NCBI GenBank assembly: GCA_009781675.1 | Contig: WQVG01000011.1 | Coordinates: 1 to 34,019 of the forward strand | Direction of reading: 5' to 3' | DNA length: 34,019 nucleotides | DNA from: Candidatus Bathycorpusculum acetigenes | GTDB taxonomy: Archaea; Thermoproteota; Bathyarchaeia; Bathyarchaeales; Bathycorpusculaceae | Shown here: positions 12,496-29,394 of the stretch, piece after piece | Layout of the letters: each line of letters begins with the position of its first letter | How positions within the stretch are numbered: the first letter of the stretch is position 1 | The notes under the pieces: model-generated | The model's input: the letters and a program-made list of their open reading frames with translations, nothing else | Told to the model about the DNA's origin: nothing | Database searches by the model: none | Position numbers and translations under genes: made by a program

Positions 12496-14127
12496 TCACG
12501 TTTCTATTTCGGTGTTTGAAGCTGTTTTGGCTTTTGCGTTTTTACGTTTATAGAGCAGATATACTGTGGCTATGACGATGATTATGATTAATATAACCGC
12601 TACGATAAGGACAAAAGGAAATGGTTCAATGTCAAAGTAAACCGTTTTTTCTGATGTATTACCCAGTTCATCGGTTGCATATACTGTTACCCAGTATCCA
12701 CCTGGGGGCAATGCCGGTAGTGTCATATTTCCAGCTAGTATTCTCTGTTCTTCCCCGTTGAGGCTGTATGTTAAGGCGGTGGCAGGTTTGTCTAGACTGA
12801 AGGTTAACTCTATGTCTGCTGAGTTGTATGCCTTATTAAGCGGAGACAAGATGACAATTGTGGGGCCCACTGTATCCACTGAAAAATAAACTGTGTTTGA
12901 TATGCCCATGTTGCCCGTGCTGTCATTAGCATAGATAACGATCCGATGGGATCCCTGTGAGAGTCCCAAAGTTGTCTGAGAACCTACGGTTCTGTTTGGT
13001 TGACCATCTAAACTGTAACCTGTCCAGGTGGTGTCTCTATTAACCGTAAAGACTAGCAGAACATCTCTGTAGGTTTTGTTTTCTGGAGACGTAATCTGCA
13101 CCACCGGCGGTACAGATCCATAACCCATAGGCTTGAACTGTTCGACTGTACTAACCCACTCGTTACCATCAAAGCCTCCGATGATATACAGAACATCGCT
13201 AACACTGACGACCCCTAAGCGTTCTTTTAGCCTAGGCATCGACTCAAGGGTGTTCCATGAATTAGTGACGGGATCAAACATTTCTGTTCTGTTATTCTTT
13301 TCTGCTGAGAAACCGCCGAAATAATAAATCCTTTGGGGCGCATGATAGCCGGTTGTGGCAACAGCTGCACCCCGGCTGACGGTGAAGGGAAACGCCCTTG
13401 CCGATGTCCATTGGTCTGTTTGGACATCGTATACCTGATTGTTATTGACAAGGCCTGAATTACTGGTTGAATAGGTTTGATTCGAGCCACCGATAACATA
13501 GATTTTGTTGTTCACAACTGCTGAACCATAACCTTTAACCGCCTTTGGTAGCGGCGCTTTTGTAGTCCAGCTGTCAGTTGCGGGGTTGTAGACTTCGTTT
13601 ATGTCTGTTTCACCATAAAATGGCATGGTGCTTGAAAATTTTTCTCCGCCGATAAGGTAGATACTTCCATTAACAACATTTGCACATAAGCCCGCTCTGG
13701 GTGTGGGCATTGTTGCTCTTTGTTCCCAGCGGTCGGTGGCGGGGTCATACATTTCATTATTTCCTACATATACATTGCCAACTGTGCCTCCGATGGCATA
13801 TATTTTGTCACCATAGACTGCTACGGCTAAACCGCTTCTAGGCGTTGGCATAGACTTTTTCGTTGTCCACGTGTTAGTCACTGGATTGTATTCTTCCACA
13901 ATGCCTAACGGTGTGTTTGTTTCGTTTATTCCACCAATAACATAGATTTTCCCGCCAACCTCTGCAACTCCAAAGTCTCCACGGGCCGTCGACATGGACT
14001 TCACGGTGGTCCAAGATGAGTTTGAGGTCTCTGCCGATACCTGATAGGGTATGTTGATTGCTGGCAGAAGGATTAATGAGATAAGGGTTATCGTGAGGAT
14101 CTGGATATGCTTAGTTATGATGTCCAC
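12496..14127 (-). CDS. Secreted, membrane-anchored Kelch-repeat protein with Ig-like domains
   Basis: A 543-residue surface protein. An N-terminal signal peptide (to about residue 32, ending YQVSAET) leads into six Kelch repeats between about 36 and 330. Each repeat has the pattern W-x-(5-8)-M-P-x-x-R...IYVIGG...Y-(D/N)-P-x-T, enough for one six-bladed beta-propeller. Two Ig-like repeats of about 85 residues follow (PPVVQITSPENKTY and GPTIVILSPLNKAY), each containing an 'ND/TD..GN' late loop. Then come one transmembrane segment (FVLIVAVILIIIIVIATVYLLY) and a short Lys-rich cytoplasmic tail. The arrangement places the propeller outside the cell, probably for binding. GTG at 14127 is the only start that keeps the signal peptide. 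Ligand unknown. Confidence 0.88.
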   Translation of the reverse strand: MDIITKHIQILTITLISLILLPAINIPYQVSAETSNSSWTTVKSMSTARGDFGVAEVGGKIYVIGGINETNTPLGIVEEYNPVTNTWTTKKSMPTPRSGLAVAVYGDKIYAIGGTVGNVYVGNNEMYDPATDRWEQRATMPTPRAGLCANVVNGSIYLIGGEKFSSTMPFYGETDINEVYNPATDSWTTKAPLPKAVKGYGSAVVNNKIYVIGGSNQTYSTSNSGLVNNNQVYDVQTDQWTSARAFPFTVSRGAAVATTGYHAPQRIYYFGGFSAEKNNRTEMFDPVTNSWNTLESMPRLKERLGVVSVSDVLYIIGGFDGNEWVSTVEQFKPMGYGSVPPVVQITSPENKTYRDVLLVFTVNRDTTWTGYSLDGQPNRTVGSQTTLGLSQGSHRIVIYANDSTGNMGISNTVYFSVDTVGPTIVILSPLNKAYNSADIELTFSLDKPATALTYSLNGEEQRILAGNMTLPALPPGGYWVTVYATDELGNTSEKTVYFDIEPFPFVLIVAVILIIIIVIATVYLLYKRKNAKAKTASNTEIET

Positions 14128-25153: not shown

Positions 25154-25915
25154 ATGAAAAAGATAGTTAGTGCCTTCATATGTGCCCTGTTAGTCTGTAC
25201 ATTACTTTTTACAGGTATAACCTCTGTGGATGAAGTTCAGGCTCAGAATACCCCAAAGAAACCTGCTGTTCCAGAATTCACCGTAAACTGTGTTACCGGA
25301 TCTACTGAGGTGCCGTCAGTTTACTCTACAGATCCCTACACAGGAGAAACAGTAACTCAACCCGGCTACAGTGAAAAATTTGTATCAATAGAGATAAAGA
25401 TTAAAAACCAAAACCATCCCAACACGGTGAAGTACAATATTCGTACAAAAGGACACTACGAAGAAAGTTGGAAAAATGCATATAACCCTAACGTTAACGT
25501 CTATGATTATCCACAGCAAGATGAAGGCCAGTATACCCTACTATATATTGACGCAAATGATTATCCTGATGGCGGCAAAGTAGATGTACAAGTTGAAGCA
25601 ATGGACGGTTATCTCTCCTGGGAAGGGCGTATTATTGCTAGCGGCTGGGTTTTTGTTGGTGAAACAAGCGGCTGGAGCAAGACAAAAACTGTGACTATAA
25701 CCAGAGAGCGTAATGAAGTGCCCAATCAAACCGAACCAACGCCCAACCCAACTTATTCCTCAAACCAACCGCCTCAACCTGAGCTATCAATAATCCAGTT
25801 TCCCTTGACTGCGTTCATATTGGTACTCATTCTCTGTCCACTAATAATAGTGGCACTAATCATTGCACTTATCTATGAGAAAAGGAAAACTGCCAGACAA
25901 AAAAGGTTAGGTTAG
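25154..25915 (+). CDS. Secreted, C-terminally anchored surface protein
   Basis: A 253-residue protein of unknown family. It has an N-terminal signal peptide (KKIVSAFICALLVCTLLFTG, cleaved near VQAQ). An extracellular beta-rich domain of about 155 residues follows, with regular Tyr/Asn/Asp-rich text (YSEKFVSIEIKIKNQ, YTLLYIDANDYPDG). A Pro/Thr/Asn linker (TEPTPNPTYSSNQPPQPE) leads to one membrane segment near 218-242 and a short basic tail (EKRKTARQKR). The layout matches other archaeal surface proteins anchored by a C-terminal helix. It is similar in plan to the Kelch protein in this window but has no Kelch motifs. Confidence 0.65.
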   Translation: MKKIVSAFICALLVCTLLFTGITSVDEVQAQNTPKKPAVPEFTVNCVTGSTEVPSVYSTDPYTGETVTQPGYSEKFVSIEIKIKNQNHPNTVKYNIRTKGHYEESWKNAYNPNVNVYDYPQQDEGQYTLLYIDANDYPDGGKVDVQVEAMDGYLSWEGRIIASGWVFVGETSGWSKTKTVTITRERNEVPNQTEPTPNPTYSSNQPPQPELSIIQFPLTAFILVLILCPLIIVALIIALIYEKRKTARQKRLG

Positions 25916-26164: not shown

Positions 26165-28330
26165 TCACTTAAAGGGCCAATCAATCTTGGGACCCGAATA
26201 AATAGGCGTTTGCTCTATCGGCTCAAATGGCTCAAACTTTGCTATCGGCTCTATCAGATCCATCGTAGGTTGATTGTACGGTAACGGTTCAATCGGCTCA
26301 AACATATAGCCTTTGCTTCTGTTGCGAGTGATTGTGCCATCATTATTAATTATGCCCTGATCGTTGATTGTAGCATTGTTTTTGTTGTTTATTGTTCCAC
26401 CTACATTATTGTTGATTATACAACCCGCATCGTTGTTGATTACGCCATTGTCGTTGTTGTTGATTACACCGTTGTTGTTGATTATGCCGCCTTTGCATGT
26501 TATATAGTGGTAGTGCTGGTGGCACGTGAAGTTGTTGTTGATTACGCCATTGTCGTTGTTGTTGATTACGCCATTGTCGTTGTTGTTGATTACACCGCCG
26601 TTGTTGATTATGCTGTTGTCGTTGTTGTTGATTATGCCGTTTGCATTGTTGTTAATTATTGCGTTGCCTTGGTTGTTTATTGTGCCACGTTCGTTGTTGG
26701 TTATGGTGCCATGATTGTTGTTTATGGTGCCCCTATTGTTGTTTATTTTACCCCCGATATTGTTTATTGTACCCCAGTTACTGTTGTTTATTGTGCCCTG
26801 GTTGTTTATTGTACCCCAGATGTTAGTTATTGTGCCTTTGTTGTTTATAGCGCCTTTATCGTTGTTGGTTATGGTGCCGCCATTGTTGGTTATGGTACCC
26901 CCATTGTTGGTTATGGTGCCACCATTGTTGTCTATGTTGTTCCAGTTGTTTATTGTGCCCAATTGGTTGTCTATTGTACCCTCATCGTTGTTTATTGTGC
27001 CCTGATTGTTGTTTATTATACCCTTTAAGTTGTTTATTGTGCCTTGGTTGTTTATTGTGCCCTGGTTGTTTATTGTGCCCCCTAAGTGGTTGTTGATCAT
27101 GCAGTTGTTGGTGATTATGCCATCGTTGTTTATTGTGCCTTTGTCGTTGTTGTTAATTCCGCCTCCGAAGGTGTTGATTATGGTGCCTCCATCGTTGGTT
27201 ATGGTACCCCCATTGTTGTTTATGGCATAGTTGTTGGTGATTATGTTCCTGTTGTTTATTGTGCCCCCGAAATTGTTTATCGTGCCATAGTCGTTGTTTA
27301 TTGTGCCTTGGTTGTTTATTGTGCCCTCGTTGTAAATTAGACCCCCGATGTGGATCAATATTGGGCCCAAGTCATCGGAGCTGGGAACCTCACATAGATT
27401 GTTGTTTATTGTGTCTTGGTTGTTTATTGTGCCTTTGTCGTTGTTGTTAATTACGCCACCGTTGTTGTTTATTGTTCCATTGTCGTTGTTGTTTATTGTT
27501 CCATTGTCGTTGTTGTTGATTATGCCGTTTACGTTGTTGTTAATTATTGCGTTGTCTTGGTTGTTTATGGTGCCTTGGTTGTTTATGGTGCCTTGGTTAT
27601 TTATTATCCCATTGTATATTGTGATCGTGATACCGCCGTCTGGTAGTGGCCCCCAGAAGGGTATTGTTAAACCCCTGTTGTTTATTGTGCCTTGGTTGTT
27701 TATTGTGCCGCTGTTGTTTATTGTGCAGGCGCTGTTGTCCATTGTGCCTTGGTTGTTTATTGTGCCGCTGTTGTATATTGTCCCAGCGATTTTCCCTTGG
27801 TTGTTTATTGTGCCGCTGTTGTATGTGTTTGTGAGTTGTAGGTAGTCATTGTTGTTTATTGTGCCGCTGTTGTTTATTATATTACTCTGGAACCAGCCTC
27901 TGTTGTTTATGGTGCCTCCGTTGTTGTTTATTGTGCCTCTGTCAGCTATGGTGCCTCCGTTGTTGTTTATTGTGCCCTGGTTGTTTATTGTGCCCCAGCT
28001 AAATATTGCCCCTATGTTGTTTATGGTGCCTTGATTGTTTATTGTTTCCCCGTGGTGGAGAACTACTTCGCCTTGATTTGTTAACGTAACGCCAGTGCCG
28101 ATTTCAATTTGACTATTAATCATGTTTTCGATGATGCCGTCTGAGGGGATTAGGATATTAGTTGCGCCATTTTGTAGTGCCTGTTCTAATTCTGTCCAGT
28201 TAGTCACGATTGTGTTTGGTGTGTCTGCTGCAACGGGTGCAGTGTTGAGTGTTACAACAAAAAGCCCTGCCATTAGTATTGTTGCAAACAACACTAAGGT
28301 GGTTTTTCCGAATTTATGTCTGCTTTGCAT
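26165..28330 (-). CDS. Secreted Asn-rich TINN-hexad repeat protein, predicted beta-solenoid
   Basis: A 721-residue protein. Residues 1-35 form a signal peptide (basic RHKFGK, hydrophobic core, cleavage near VAADT). Residues 40-94 resemble the N-terminal cap of a right-handed beta-helix (NWTELEQALQNGATNILIPS, IEIGTGVTLTN). Residues 95-669 are almost wholly short repeats of the form G-T-I-N-N-Q/N, with 7- and 8-residue variants (GTINNNG, GTINNNDN, GVINNND). A Pro/Glu-rich non-repetitive tail (FEPIEPLPYNQP) ends the protein, with no membrane anchor. The hydrophobic Ile every six residues and the stacked Asn pairs suggest a beta-solenoid with Asn ladders. Function unknown; a surface fibre or adhesin is plausible. 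GAGGAT precedes the ATG at 28330. Confidence 0.75.
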   Translation of the reverse strand: MQSRHKFGKTTLVLFATILMAGLFVVTLNTAPVAADTPNTIVTNWTELEQALQNGATNILIPSDGIIENMINSQIEIGTGVTLTNQGEVVLHHGETINNQGTINNIGAIFSWGTINNQGTINNNGGTIADRGTINNNGGTINNRGWFQSNIINNSGTINNNDYLQLTNTYNSGTINNQGKIAGTIYNSGTINNQGTMDNSACTINNSGTINNQGTINNRGLTIPFWGPLPDGGITITIYNGIINNQGTINNQGTINNQDNAIINNNVNGIINNNDNGTINNNDNGTINNNGGVINNNDKGTINNQDTINNNLCEVPSSDDLGPILIHIGGLIYNEGTINNQGTINNDYGTINNFGGTINNRNIITNNYAINNNGGTITNDGGTIINTFGGGINNNDKGTINNDGIITNNCMINNHLGGTINNQGTINNQGTINNLKGIINNNQGTINNDEGTIDNQLGTINNWNNIDNNGGTITNNGGTITNNGGTITNNDKGAINNKGTITNIWGTINNQGTINNSNWGTINNIGGKINNNRGTINNNHGTITNNERGTINNQGNAIINNNANGIINNNDNSIINNGGVINNNDNGVINNNDNGVINNNFTCHQHYHYITCKGGIINNNGVINNNDNGVINNDAGCIINNNVGGTINNKNNATINDQGIINNDGTITRNRSKGYMFEPIEPLPYNQPTMDLIEPIAKFEPFEPIEQTPIYSGPKIDWPFK
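26324..28048 (-). repeat. Hexad repeat block inside the solenoid gene
   Basis: The codons behind G-T-I-N-N recur almost unchanged (GGCACAATAAACAA and close variants), far more alike than protein selection needs. Larger blocks are copied too: the segment near 27501-27567 reappears with few changes near 26616-26679 (the NAIINNN-NGIINNNDN part). This points to recent tandem and segmental duplication. Confidence 0.8.
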
Positions 28331-28356: not shown

Positions 28357-28476
28357 CTATACAATACGATGCTCGCGAATTTGCATGTTACCTTTGGTAT
28401 CTGCATAAACTCTAACGGTGTTAAGTGTTAACAATGACAAAAGCGCCATTCCTACTATTATTTTATTTTTTTCCAA
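28357..28476 (-). CDS. Small ORF with a signal-peptide-like N-terminus
   Basis: A TTG-started frame of 39 codons lies 26 bp upstream of the solenoid gene on the same strand. AAGGAG precedes it. The product has a basic start (EKNKIIVG), a hydrophobic core (MALLSLLTLNTV) and an AxA-like end (RVYADT), then about 13 residues. It could be a secreted peptide, a leader for the big gene, or the remnant of a truncated secreted protein. Confidence 0.3.
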   Translation of the reverse strand: MEKNKIIVGMALLSLLTLNTVRVYADTKGNMQIREHRIV

Positions 28477-28586: not shown

Positions 28587-29394
28587 TTACTTGTTGAGCG
28601 AAATATCAGCATTCACATAACGTCCTATCTGGCGTAACCACCCATCATCGGCTTACAAGAAACAACCAAAGGAATCCGCCTAACCCCCGTCTTACCCTTA
28701 GCAGTAATAAGACAATAACCTCCTTAAACACCACACTCCCAACATACATAGACAACAACTCGCCCGGACGAAGAGTTGTCTCAAACAACACATAATCATC
28801 GCCCTATCCGCTTATTAGAAGTTGTTTTGAGTATGGAAGTTAGCTCGTCCGAGGTTAACAGGTTTTCTGGGGTTACACGTGAGTCTTTGTTTTTCATAGC
28901 TAAGCTACCCCGCTAACCTCAGGCGGTAAAGGGCTATCTTTAGCGCAACTTCCAGTTTTGACGTATTGTACCCGTTTTCGCAGAGTCAATTTCTTGTCGT
29001 GTTTAGTGGAGGCTTTGTTTTGATTGTGTTAATGTTAGCAACGACACGCTCAACATCAGTTTAGTCAACTCTTTAAGGTCAACATCACCTATTATACGAA
29101 ATAATATTGGCAAATGAGAGGCATATTTGACTAAACTCCCTACAGACAAACCAAGCGCACCTAAATGATCCAAAAACTGCAAACTTATCTTGCTATTGGG
29201 TAGCAGTTTGATGTTGTACTTGAATCTTTCAAAGCGTTTTTCGTAGTCATGGATGGAGCGATTAGTTGTCATGCTCCCTATAGCTTCTGAGACTTTAAAA
29301 GGCAGAAAAATCTGATTTTTATTTTTTGGAACCACAACTTGAGGAAGAGTTGCAGACGCAACAGTAAAGAGCGGGGGATGGGATTTGAACTCAT
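28587..29394 (-). pseudogene. Decayed archaeal tyrosine recombinase (integrase)
   Basis: An integrase can be read on the minus strand through about six frame segments. From the tRNA scar the first (to 29003) gives EFKSHPPLF and the core-binding domain (DYEKRFERFKYNI, LGALGLSVGSLVKYASHLPI). A second (29016-28900) gives STKHDKKLTLRKRVQYVKTG. A third (to 28796) gives VTPENLLTSDELTSILK. A fourth gives VLFETTLRPGELLSM, holding catalytic Arg I. A fifth gives YCLITAKGKTGVRRIPLVV, holding the catalytic Lys hairpin. A sixth gives NADISLNK, stopping at 28587. The HxxR box and the Tyr are missing. Each break needs a frameshift or stop, so the gene is dead. It marks a former integrated element. Confidence 0.85.
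29370..29394 (-). other. tRNA 3'-end fragment, integration att scar
   Basis: Read on the minus strand: a T-arm ATGAG-TTCAAAT-CCCAT (one mismatch, A52/C62), then the acceptor 3' strand CCCCCGC and base 73 T. No D-arm, anticodon arm or matching GCGGGGG 5' strand precedes it, so it is not a tRNA gene. The GCGGGGG acceptor is common in archaeal tRNA-Leu, but the parent is a guess. It overlaps both the integrase start and the stop codon of the protease gene. Confidence 0.75.

Follow-up and report, generated by a model that had tools for sequence, protein, structure and literature searches.

A 721-residue protein made almost only of short Thr-Ile-Asn-Asn units, here called the TINN protein, raises the question of how such a repeat folds and what it does for an archaeon of the termite gut. 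The window analyzed is the whole stretch of 34,019 nt, which is an entire contig (C11) of a genome of 2,139,595 bp in 140 contigs (G000). Its source is the MAG Emb289P1_bin127 (WQVG00000000), of lineage TB2 'Candidatus Termitimicrobium', sampled from the termite Embiratermes neotenicus (hindgut compartment P1; PMC7886697); the lineage has since been placed in Bathycorpusculum (Bathyarchaeia) (PMC10684969). How Bathyarchaeia escape washout from the termite gut was asked by the describers of these genomes (PMC7886697). The explanation that we favor is a Sec-secreted solenoid adhesin with an Asn ladder, which travels with viral elements and is plausibly their cargo; for this reading as a whole, we consider the chances of being right and of being wrong to be about equal.

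The open reading frame reported by the sequence-only reading is real: it encodes 721 residues on the minus strand (26165..28330), starts with ATG, has GAGG upstream of the start, and is backed by homologues. All parts of the protein are given on the same strand. Residues 1-36 (28223..28330) form a Sec-type signal peptide by hydropathy, with a hydrophobic stretch at about residues 8-36 and probable cleavage near VAA-DT. Hydropathy showed this N-terminal stretch to be the only hydrophobic one and none at the C-terminus; thus, the earlier claims of a signal peptide and of a missing membrane anchor are both correct. An N-cap domain follows (residues 37-92; 28055..28222; alignment, HMM, Pfam, and AF2), with an amphipathic helix at 45-53 and then strands. 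The repeat array covers residues 95-672 (26315..28048), or about 75-80 units judged by motif spacing, and is interrupted by three non-repeat insertions. AF2 confidence is partly low in the first two (residues 217-240, 27611..27682; residues 309-331, 27338..27406), and the third is rich in Cys and His (residues 600-615, 26486..26533; FTCHQHYHYITCKGGI). The last 49 residues (673-721; 26168..26314) are a Pro/Glu-rich tail predicted by AF2 to be disordered.

Asn accounts for 25.8% of the protein, followed by Ile (15.8%), Gly (13.5%), and Thr (11.0%). The consensus of the unit is [G]-[T/I/V]-I-[N/T]-N-x(1-3), the linker being 1-3 residues long (Q, N, D, or G). When units were aligned on I-x-N (n = 69), Gly was found at position -2 in 56/69, Thr at -1 in 43/69, and Asn at +1 in 56/69. 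These preferences exceed chance; the unit is defined by Ile and the second Asn, and the other three residues are strongly favored. The spacing of the units was mixed, so the earlier description of the array as hexads is just partly correct: the interval between core motifs was 6 residues in 23 of 85 cases, and the other intervals included 7 residues (23 cases) and 8 residues (14 cases).

Codon choice within the units was nearly uniform. The TINN codons were almost always ACA ATA AAC AAC, and Ile was encoded by ATA in 34/34 units, as compared with 34% of the Ile codons in the other genes of the window (0.34^34 ~1e-16). A paralogue in the same genome, on contig C59, prefers ACC CTA/ATA AAC AAC. 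Because codon choice differs between the two copies, each gene has been expanded or homogenized on its own at the DNA level; duplication of units in the DNA would account for both the growth of the array and its homogeneity. The C59 copy runs off the end of its contig within the repeats, and assemblies often break at repeats. Antisense open reading frames (84-173 aa) across the repeat were discarded as by-products of the repeated codons. A role as a scaffold for N-glycosylation was also rejected: the protein has 9 sequons versus 23 +/- 3.8 in shuffled sequences, a depletion partly forced by the motif itself.

Four lines of evidence bear on the fold of the array, and each alone is indecisive. 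The HMM of the N-cap also matches (E 4e-7 to 3e-6) proteins from this genus whose repeats are of the Chlam_PMP beta-helix type. Two relatives exceed the Fil_haemagg (PF05594) cut-off of 21.5 bits, namely a paralogue (L019, 25.3) and a Nitrosopumilus protein (L056, 22.7). An alphaproteobacterial protein (L047) has the repeat in passenger position, ahead of an Autotransporter domain (136 bits). Finally, both AF2 runs placed a helix in the cap (residues 45-53) and gave each unit a single strand of 4 residues. The window protein itself had no match to PF05594 even at E 10, no match to Chlam_PMP (PF02415), and passed no family cut-off in Pfam or NCBIfam.

The AF2 runs differed in consistency. From the single sequence, the five models disagreed (mean pLDDT 63, 49, 45, 42, and 37); with eight relatives aligned, the five models had mean pLDDT values of 63-67, with block means of 78-93 at residues about 100-200. 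When the full-length model was searched with Foldseek, chains of Antigen 43 (including 4KH3) filled the first seven PDB places, although the matches were weak (E 4e-3 to 5e-2), and a shorter alignment-based model had no PDB match under E = 1. AF2 returns confident yet unrealistic beta-solenoids for perfect repeats (PMC11795689); prediction of this type alone therefore cannot settle the fold, and we gave the AF2 evidence little weight, although the TINN repeats are imperfect. From the four lines together, we strongly infer that the array folds as a beta-solenoid, and we hold this to be likely. The solenoid first predicted from the sequence is partly supported, with one short strand per unit in the models, and is weakened by the AF2 bias and the poor Foldseek matches. 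Two details of that prediction change. Three hexads per coil found no support, the mixed 6/7/8 spacing arguing against strict hexads, and the N-cap, Fil_haemagg, the autotransporter passenger, and Antigen 43 all point to right-handed parallel beta-helix adhesins instead of an LbetaH hexapeptide solenoid. A reading as a hexapeptide acyltransferase was rejected on the same spacing and on the lack of a Hexapep match.

The main structural alternative is that the protein is of low complexity and Asn-rich, and is disordered or a functional amyloid instead of a monomeric solenoid. The high Asn content would agree with this, as would the overprediction of solenoids on repeats by AF2 (PMC11795689) and the fact that just one of the five single-sequence models was good. 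However, nearly all units retain the aliphatic position, and the N-cap is both dedicated and conserved. The repeat is also found in the passenger of an autotransporter and comes close to Fil_haemagg, and the five models of the aligned run were alike in confidence. We consider this alternative improbable.

The family is narrowly distributed. Matches to the full-length protein were confined to the genus Bathycorpusculum in a search of 121 genomes, and an HMM of the N-cap plus the first repeats (E ≤ 1e-8) found the family in 5/257 genomes of the class, all of this genus (G000, G001, G014, G020, and G023). The first four fit termite-gut MAGs, an assignment that is exact for G000 and G001 and approximate for the others. 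The family was present in 4/9 mapped termite genomes versus 1/23 (Fisher P = 0.015), a comparison of small numbers with approximate mapping. Several copies occur in G000: the window gene, the cut copy on C59, a broken copy on C117, and a tail remnant on C7. The remnant (C7, 11036-11131; L020, 5022-5327) lies next to a nadA-like gene and matches the C-terminal tail alone (53% identity); judged from this match, it is apparently the leftover of a lost TINN paralogue.

The bare motif is rare and more widespread than the family. GTINNxGTINN was found in 18 stretches across about 85,000 species, one of which (L052) is in a doubtful reading frame. Its carriers among archaea are Nitrosopumilus, other Thaumarchaeota, and one euryarchaeote; among bacteria, they are Flavobacteriales, a Desulfobacteraceae MAG, a Paracaedibacteraceae autotransporter, Clostridia, and Synergistaceae. 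Relatives in other archaea thus exist, as had been predicted (e.g., Nitrosopumilus). The suggestion of a new repeat class was overstated: the repeat matches no named family in Pfam or NCBIfam, but the motif is already known from an autotransporter, a Desulfobacteraceae MAG, Nitrosopumilus, Flavobacteriales, and Clostridia. Three carriers among the unrelated bacteria have names in the style of termite-gut MAGs, namely Oscillospiraceae Emb289P1bin128 (which shares its P1 sample with the window genome), Defluviitaleaceae Co191P1bin81, and Synergistaceae Th196P3bin106, and a fourth, Family XIII Cf509_bin47, is of termite-gut origin by name alone. Termite-gut genomes would make up 4 or 5 of 17 motif carriers, far above chance (P about 3e-4 or less, if such MAGs make up 1-2% of the collection, a share that is our own estimate). 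No relatives were found when the single protein was searched against viral contigs, the motif had zero occurrences in the viral contig collection, tblastn against phage and plasmid sequences gave no match, and a literature search on the motif surfaced nothing relevant.

Some of the related proteins have unusual architectures. In G014 (C36, L063), a capped TINN-like protein continues into repeated C-x-x-C / LGH units reminiscent of surface proteins in Firmicutes, and in G020 (C19, L022) the repeat is preceded by Laminin_G, metallophosphatase, and Flg_new; these two proteins hint that genes moved in from bacteria of the gut. A euryarchaeal MAG protein (L051, 4-2376, minus strand) has two near-identical GTLTIESG + GTINN blocks with PKD-like domains between them.

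Three copies of the gene are associated with mobile elements; neither this context nor the termite-gut setting was noticed in the sequence-only reading. In the window, the remains of a tyrosine recombinase (integrase), a decayed fragment broken by internal stops, are found 300 bp upstream of the TINN start (28634..28855, minus strand). Intact copies of ~370-510 aa in G000, G001, and G014 have 51-65% identity to the fragment, and its match to PF00589 is below the cut-off. Between this remnant and the TINN gene, we read a 39-codon open reading frame (28357..28476, minus strand), preceded by a TATA-like box of archaeal type (TATAAAA, at about 28549-28543). From its sequence, the small frame resembles an orphan signal peptide and may be the trace of a rearrangement through which the TINN gene acquired its promoter. 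Scans of the gene for Sigma-70-type promoters and terminators found no more than chance, a consensus that is inapplicable to archaeal promoters. No viral structural genes were recognized among the open reading frames read in the window.

The second case is the nearest relative, on a contig of 40,077 bp (G001:C94, WRJX01000094) from a sister species, the MAG Nt197P4_bin22 (Neocapritermes taracua, lineage TB1). Over its first ~14 kb, which include a Fae-HPS fusion, the contig looks chromosomal. The stretch of 14.7-40 kb (L119, L021) is in its own right the provirus of a head-tail virus in termite-gut Bathyarchaeia. It encodes a terminase large subunit (phrog_2, E 5e-29), a portal protein (PF04860, scoring over the cut-off), a major head protein, and a DNA methyltransferase; its boundary is not fixed because the right-hand end is not on the contig. 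A 1259-aa protein encoded there carries eight copies of the Flg_new (Listeria-Bacteroides) repeat and may be a fiber that binds receptors. The TINN gene (35316-37097, plus strand) lies within a run of minus-strand proviral genes and is the sole long plus-strand open reading frame of the proviral stretch, as expected of accessory cargo. The third case is the C59 copy, whose 12-kb contig also holds an integrase that is intact, 10 kb away, and many small open reading frames. The pattern is not universal: contig C71 of G000 has a terminase 66% identical and a different capped surface protein, without a TINN gene, and in G020 and G023, the open reading frames read around the TINN genes included no mobile-element neighbors. 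From the three associated copies, we infer that the gene serves as cargo of mobile elements; that proviruses disseminate TINN genes is somewhat less likely than the contrary.

Carriage by a provirus invites two other functional readings, and the chief rival to adhesion is superinfection exclusion. The protein would then be a product of lysogenic conversion that coats the host and blocks viral adsorption, with adhesion secondary. The provirus-borne gene of G001, with its strand opposite to that of its viral neighbors, and the integrases of the C59 contig (intact) and of the window (broken) all agree with such a role. Nevertheless, no proviral setting is visible for the related genes of G020, G023, and G014, and the bacterial relatives are ordinary surface proteins, which leaves a shield with a small probability. 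A virion component, such as a tail fiber or spike of an archaeal virus, is much less probable still. Tailspikes are beta-helices, the G001 gene sits in a provirus, and the top fold match in the viral library was an 'autotransporter beta-domain containing' Caudovirales protein (E 2.9e-4); however, the protein has a Sec signal peptide, its gene runs opposite to the structural gene cluster, and the chromosomal and bacterial relatives carry cell-surface domains.

Two further readings were rejected as very nearly without probability. An ice-binding or ice-nucleating solenoid (T-x-N ladders, cf. MpAFP and Lolium IRI) is suggested by the T-I-N ladder chemistry, which resembles ice-binding faces, and by a weak match to the Ca-dependent antifreeze protein 3p4g (E 1.5), but unit lengths vary from 6 to 8 residues, so that outward residues form no uniform TxT/TxN plane, and the host inhabits a higher-termite gut (PMC7886697). 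A RiPP precursor of the TigB (poly-cyclopropylglycine) type was the sole NCBIfam match (NF047709, E 1e-3), but its 19.1 bits are far under the 70-bit cut-off, the protein has 721 aa plus a Sec signal, and there is no radical-SAM gene among the window open reading frames read.

Other surface proteins are encoded nearby. A secreted protein with a C-terminal TM anchor (25154..25915, plus strand) has no Pfam match; in G001, too, the TINN gene has a homologue of this protein as its neighbor. Its family has 12 matches in G000 and occurs in 29/32 genomes of the genus, with up to 22 per genome; because the family is multi-copy, its link to the TINN gene is weak, and its membership in the same element is doubtful. 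It represents a large unnamed expansion of surface proteins. Farther away, a secreted protein with Kelch repeats that ends in a TM anchor (12496-14127, minus strand) is another probable surface protein.

The adhesin explanation would operate as follows. The protein would be exported through Sec and form a fiber at the cell surface or outside the cell. The N-cap would seed the beta-solenoid, with one short strand from each TINN unit; Ile would be buried, and Thr and Asn would lie outside and at the turns, so that Asn residues would stack into ladders and present a long face for hydrogen bonding. A role as adhesin or aggregation factor is the simplest because a secreted, polar-faced solenoid is predicted and because relatives are coupled to autotransporter, SLH (L041, in which the repeat precedes the domain), Laminin_G, and fn3 domains. 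Its most likely job would be adhesion or self-association of the Antigen 43 kind, which may keep a slow-growing archaeon in a gut flushed every 24-48 h (PMC7886697); for surface adhesion taken by itself, the arguments for and against are about balanced, and the absence of any anchor by hydropathy counts against it. The gene would be carried by integrative viral elements, plausibly as accessory cargo. A bolder version, in which proviruses spread Asn-ladder fibers whose length is tuned by repeat expansion and whose module, common to bacteria of the same gut, is a cross-domain currency for gut retention, seems to us unlikely. If adhesion is correct, the protein is a concrete candidate for washout avoidance by uncultured Bathyarchaeia in termite guts, beta-helix adhesin chemistry has been cut to a near-minimal G-T-I-N-N unit in an archaeon, and head-tail viruses may alter the archaeal surface by lysogenic conversion. 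The array would then also serve as a natural test case for the stability of Asn ladders and for the solenoid bias of AF2.

Among known systems, the LbetaH acyltransferase type is similar in having an aliphatic residue at roughly every sixth position; the TINN protein differs in lacking the [LIV]-[GAED]-x2-[STAV]-x pattern, an enzyme domain, and a Hexapep Pfam match, and in its 6/7/8 spacing. Filamentous haemagglutinin (PF05594) is approached by the relatives L019 and L056, which pass its cut-off, whereas the window protein has neither a match to it nor a two-partner secretion domain. Chlamydial Pmp-type beta-helices share the type of N-cap that precedes the array in the copies of the genus, and Asn ladders have been described in their rungs (PF02415; PMC10715098). 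Their rungs are long, with FxxN + GGAI pairs, versus TINN units of 6-8 residues, and the Chlam_PMP copies of Bathycorpusculum bear C-terminal TM anchors, which the TINN protein does not. The closest structural parallel is Antigen 43, the best PDB match of the full model (weak, E 4e-3), an elongated right-handed beta-helix that self-associates by a Velcro handshake along its stem (PMC10058404; PDB 4KH3, 7KOH); an elongated beta-helix is likewise predicted for the TINN protein, which has short near-perfect GTINN units and no autochaperone. The TINN protein has no C-terminal outer-membrane beta-barrel and ends in its predicted-disordered Pro/Glu tail. Archaea have no outer-membrane barrel. The GTINN-repeat proteins of Nitrosopumilus, Flavobacteriales, the euryarchaeote, and termite-gut Clostridia and Synergistaceae MAGs share the core motif, some in long arrays, but have other N-caps, HYR, fn3, SLH, or autotransporter partner domains, and fewer or less pure repeats. 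Thus, the beta-helix adhesin and the Asn ladder are already known as ideas; what is new is a near-minimal TINN unit in a 575-residue archaeal array, unnamed in Pfam and NCBIfam, with a genus-specific cap and a viral linkage.
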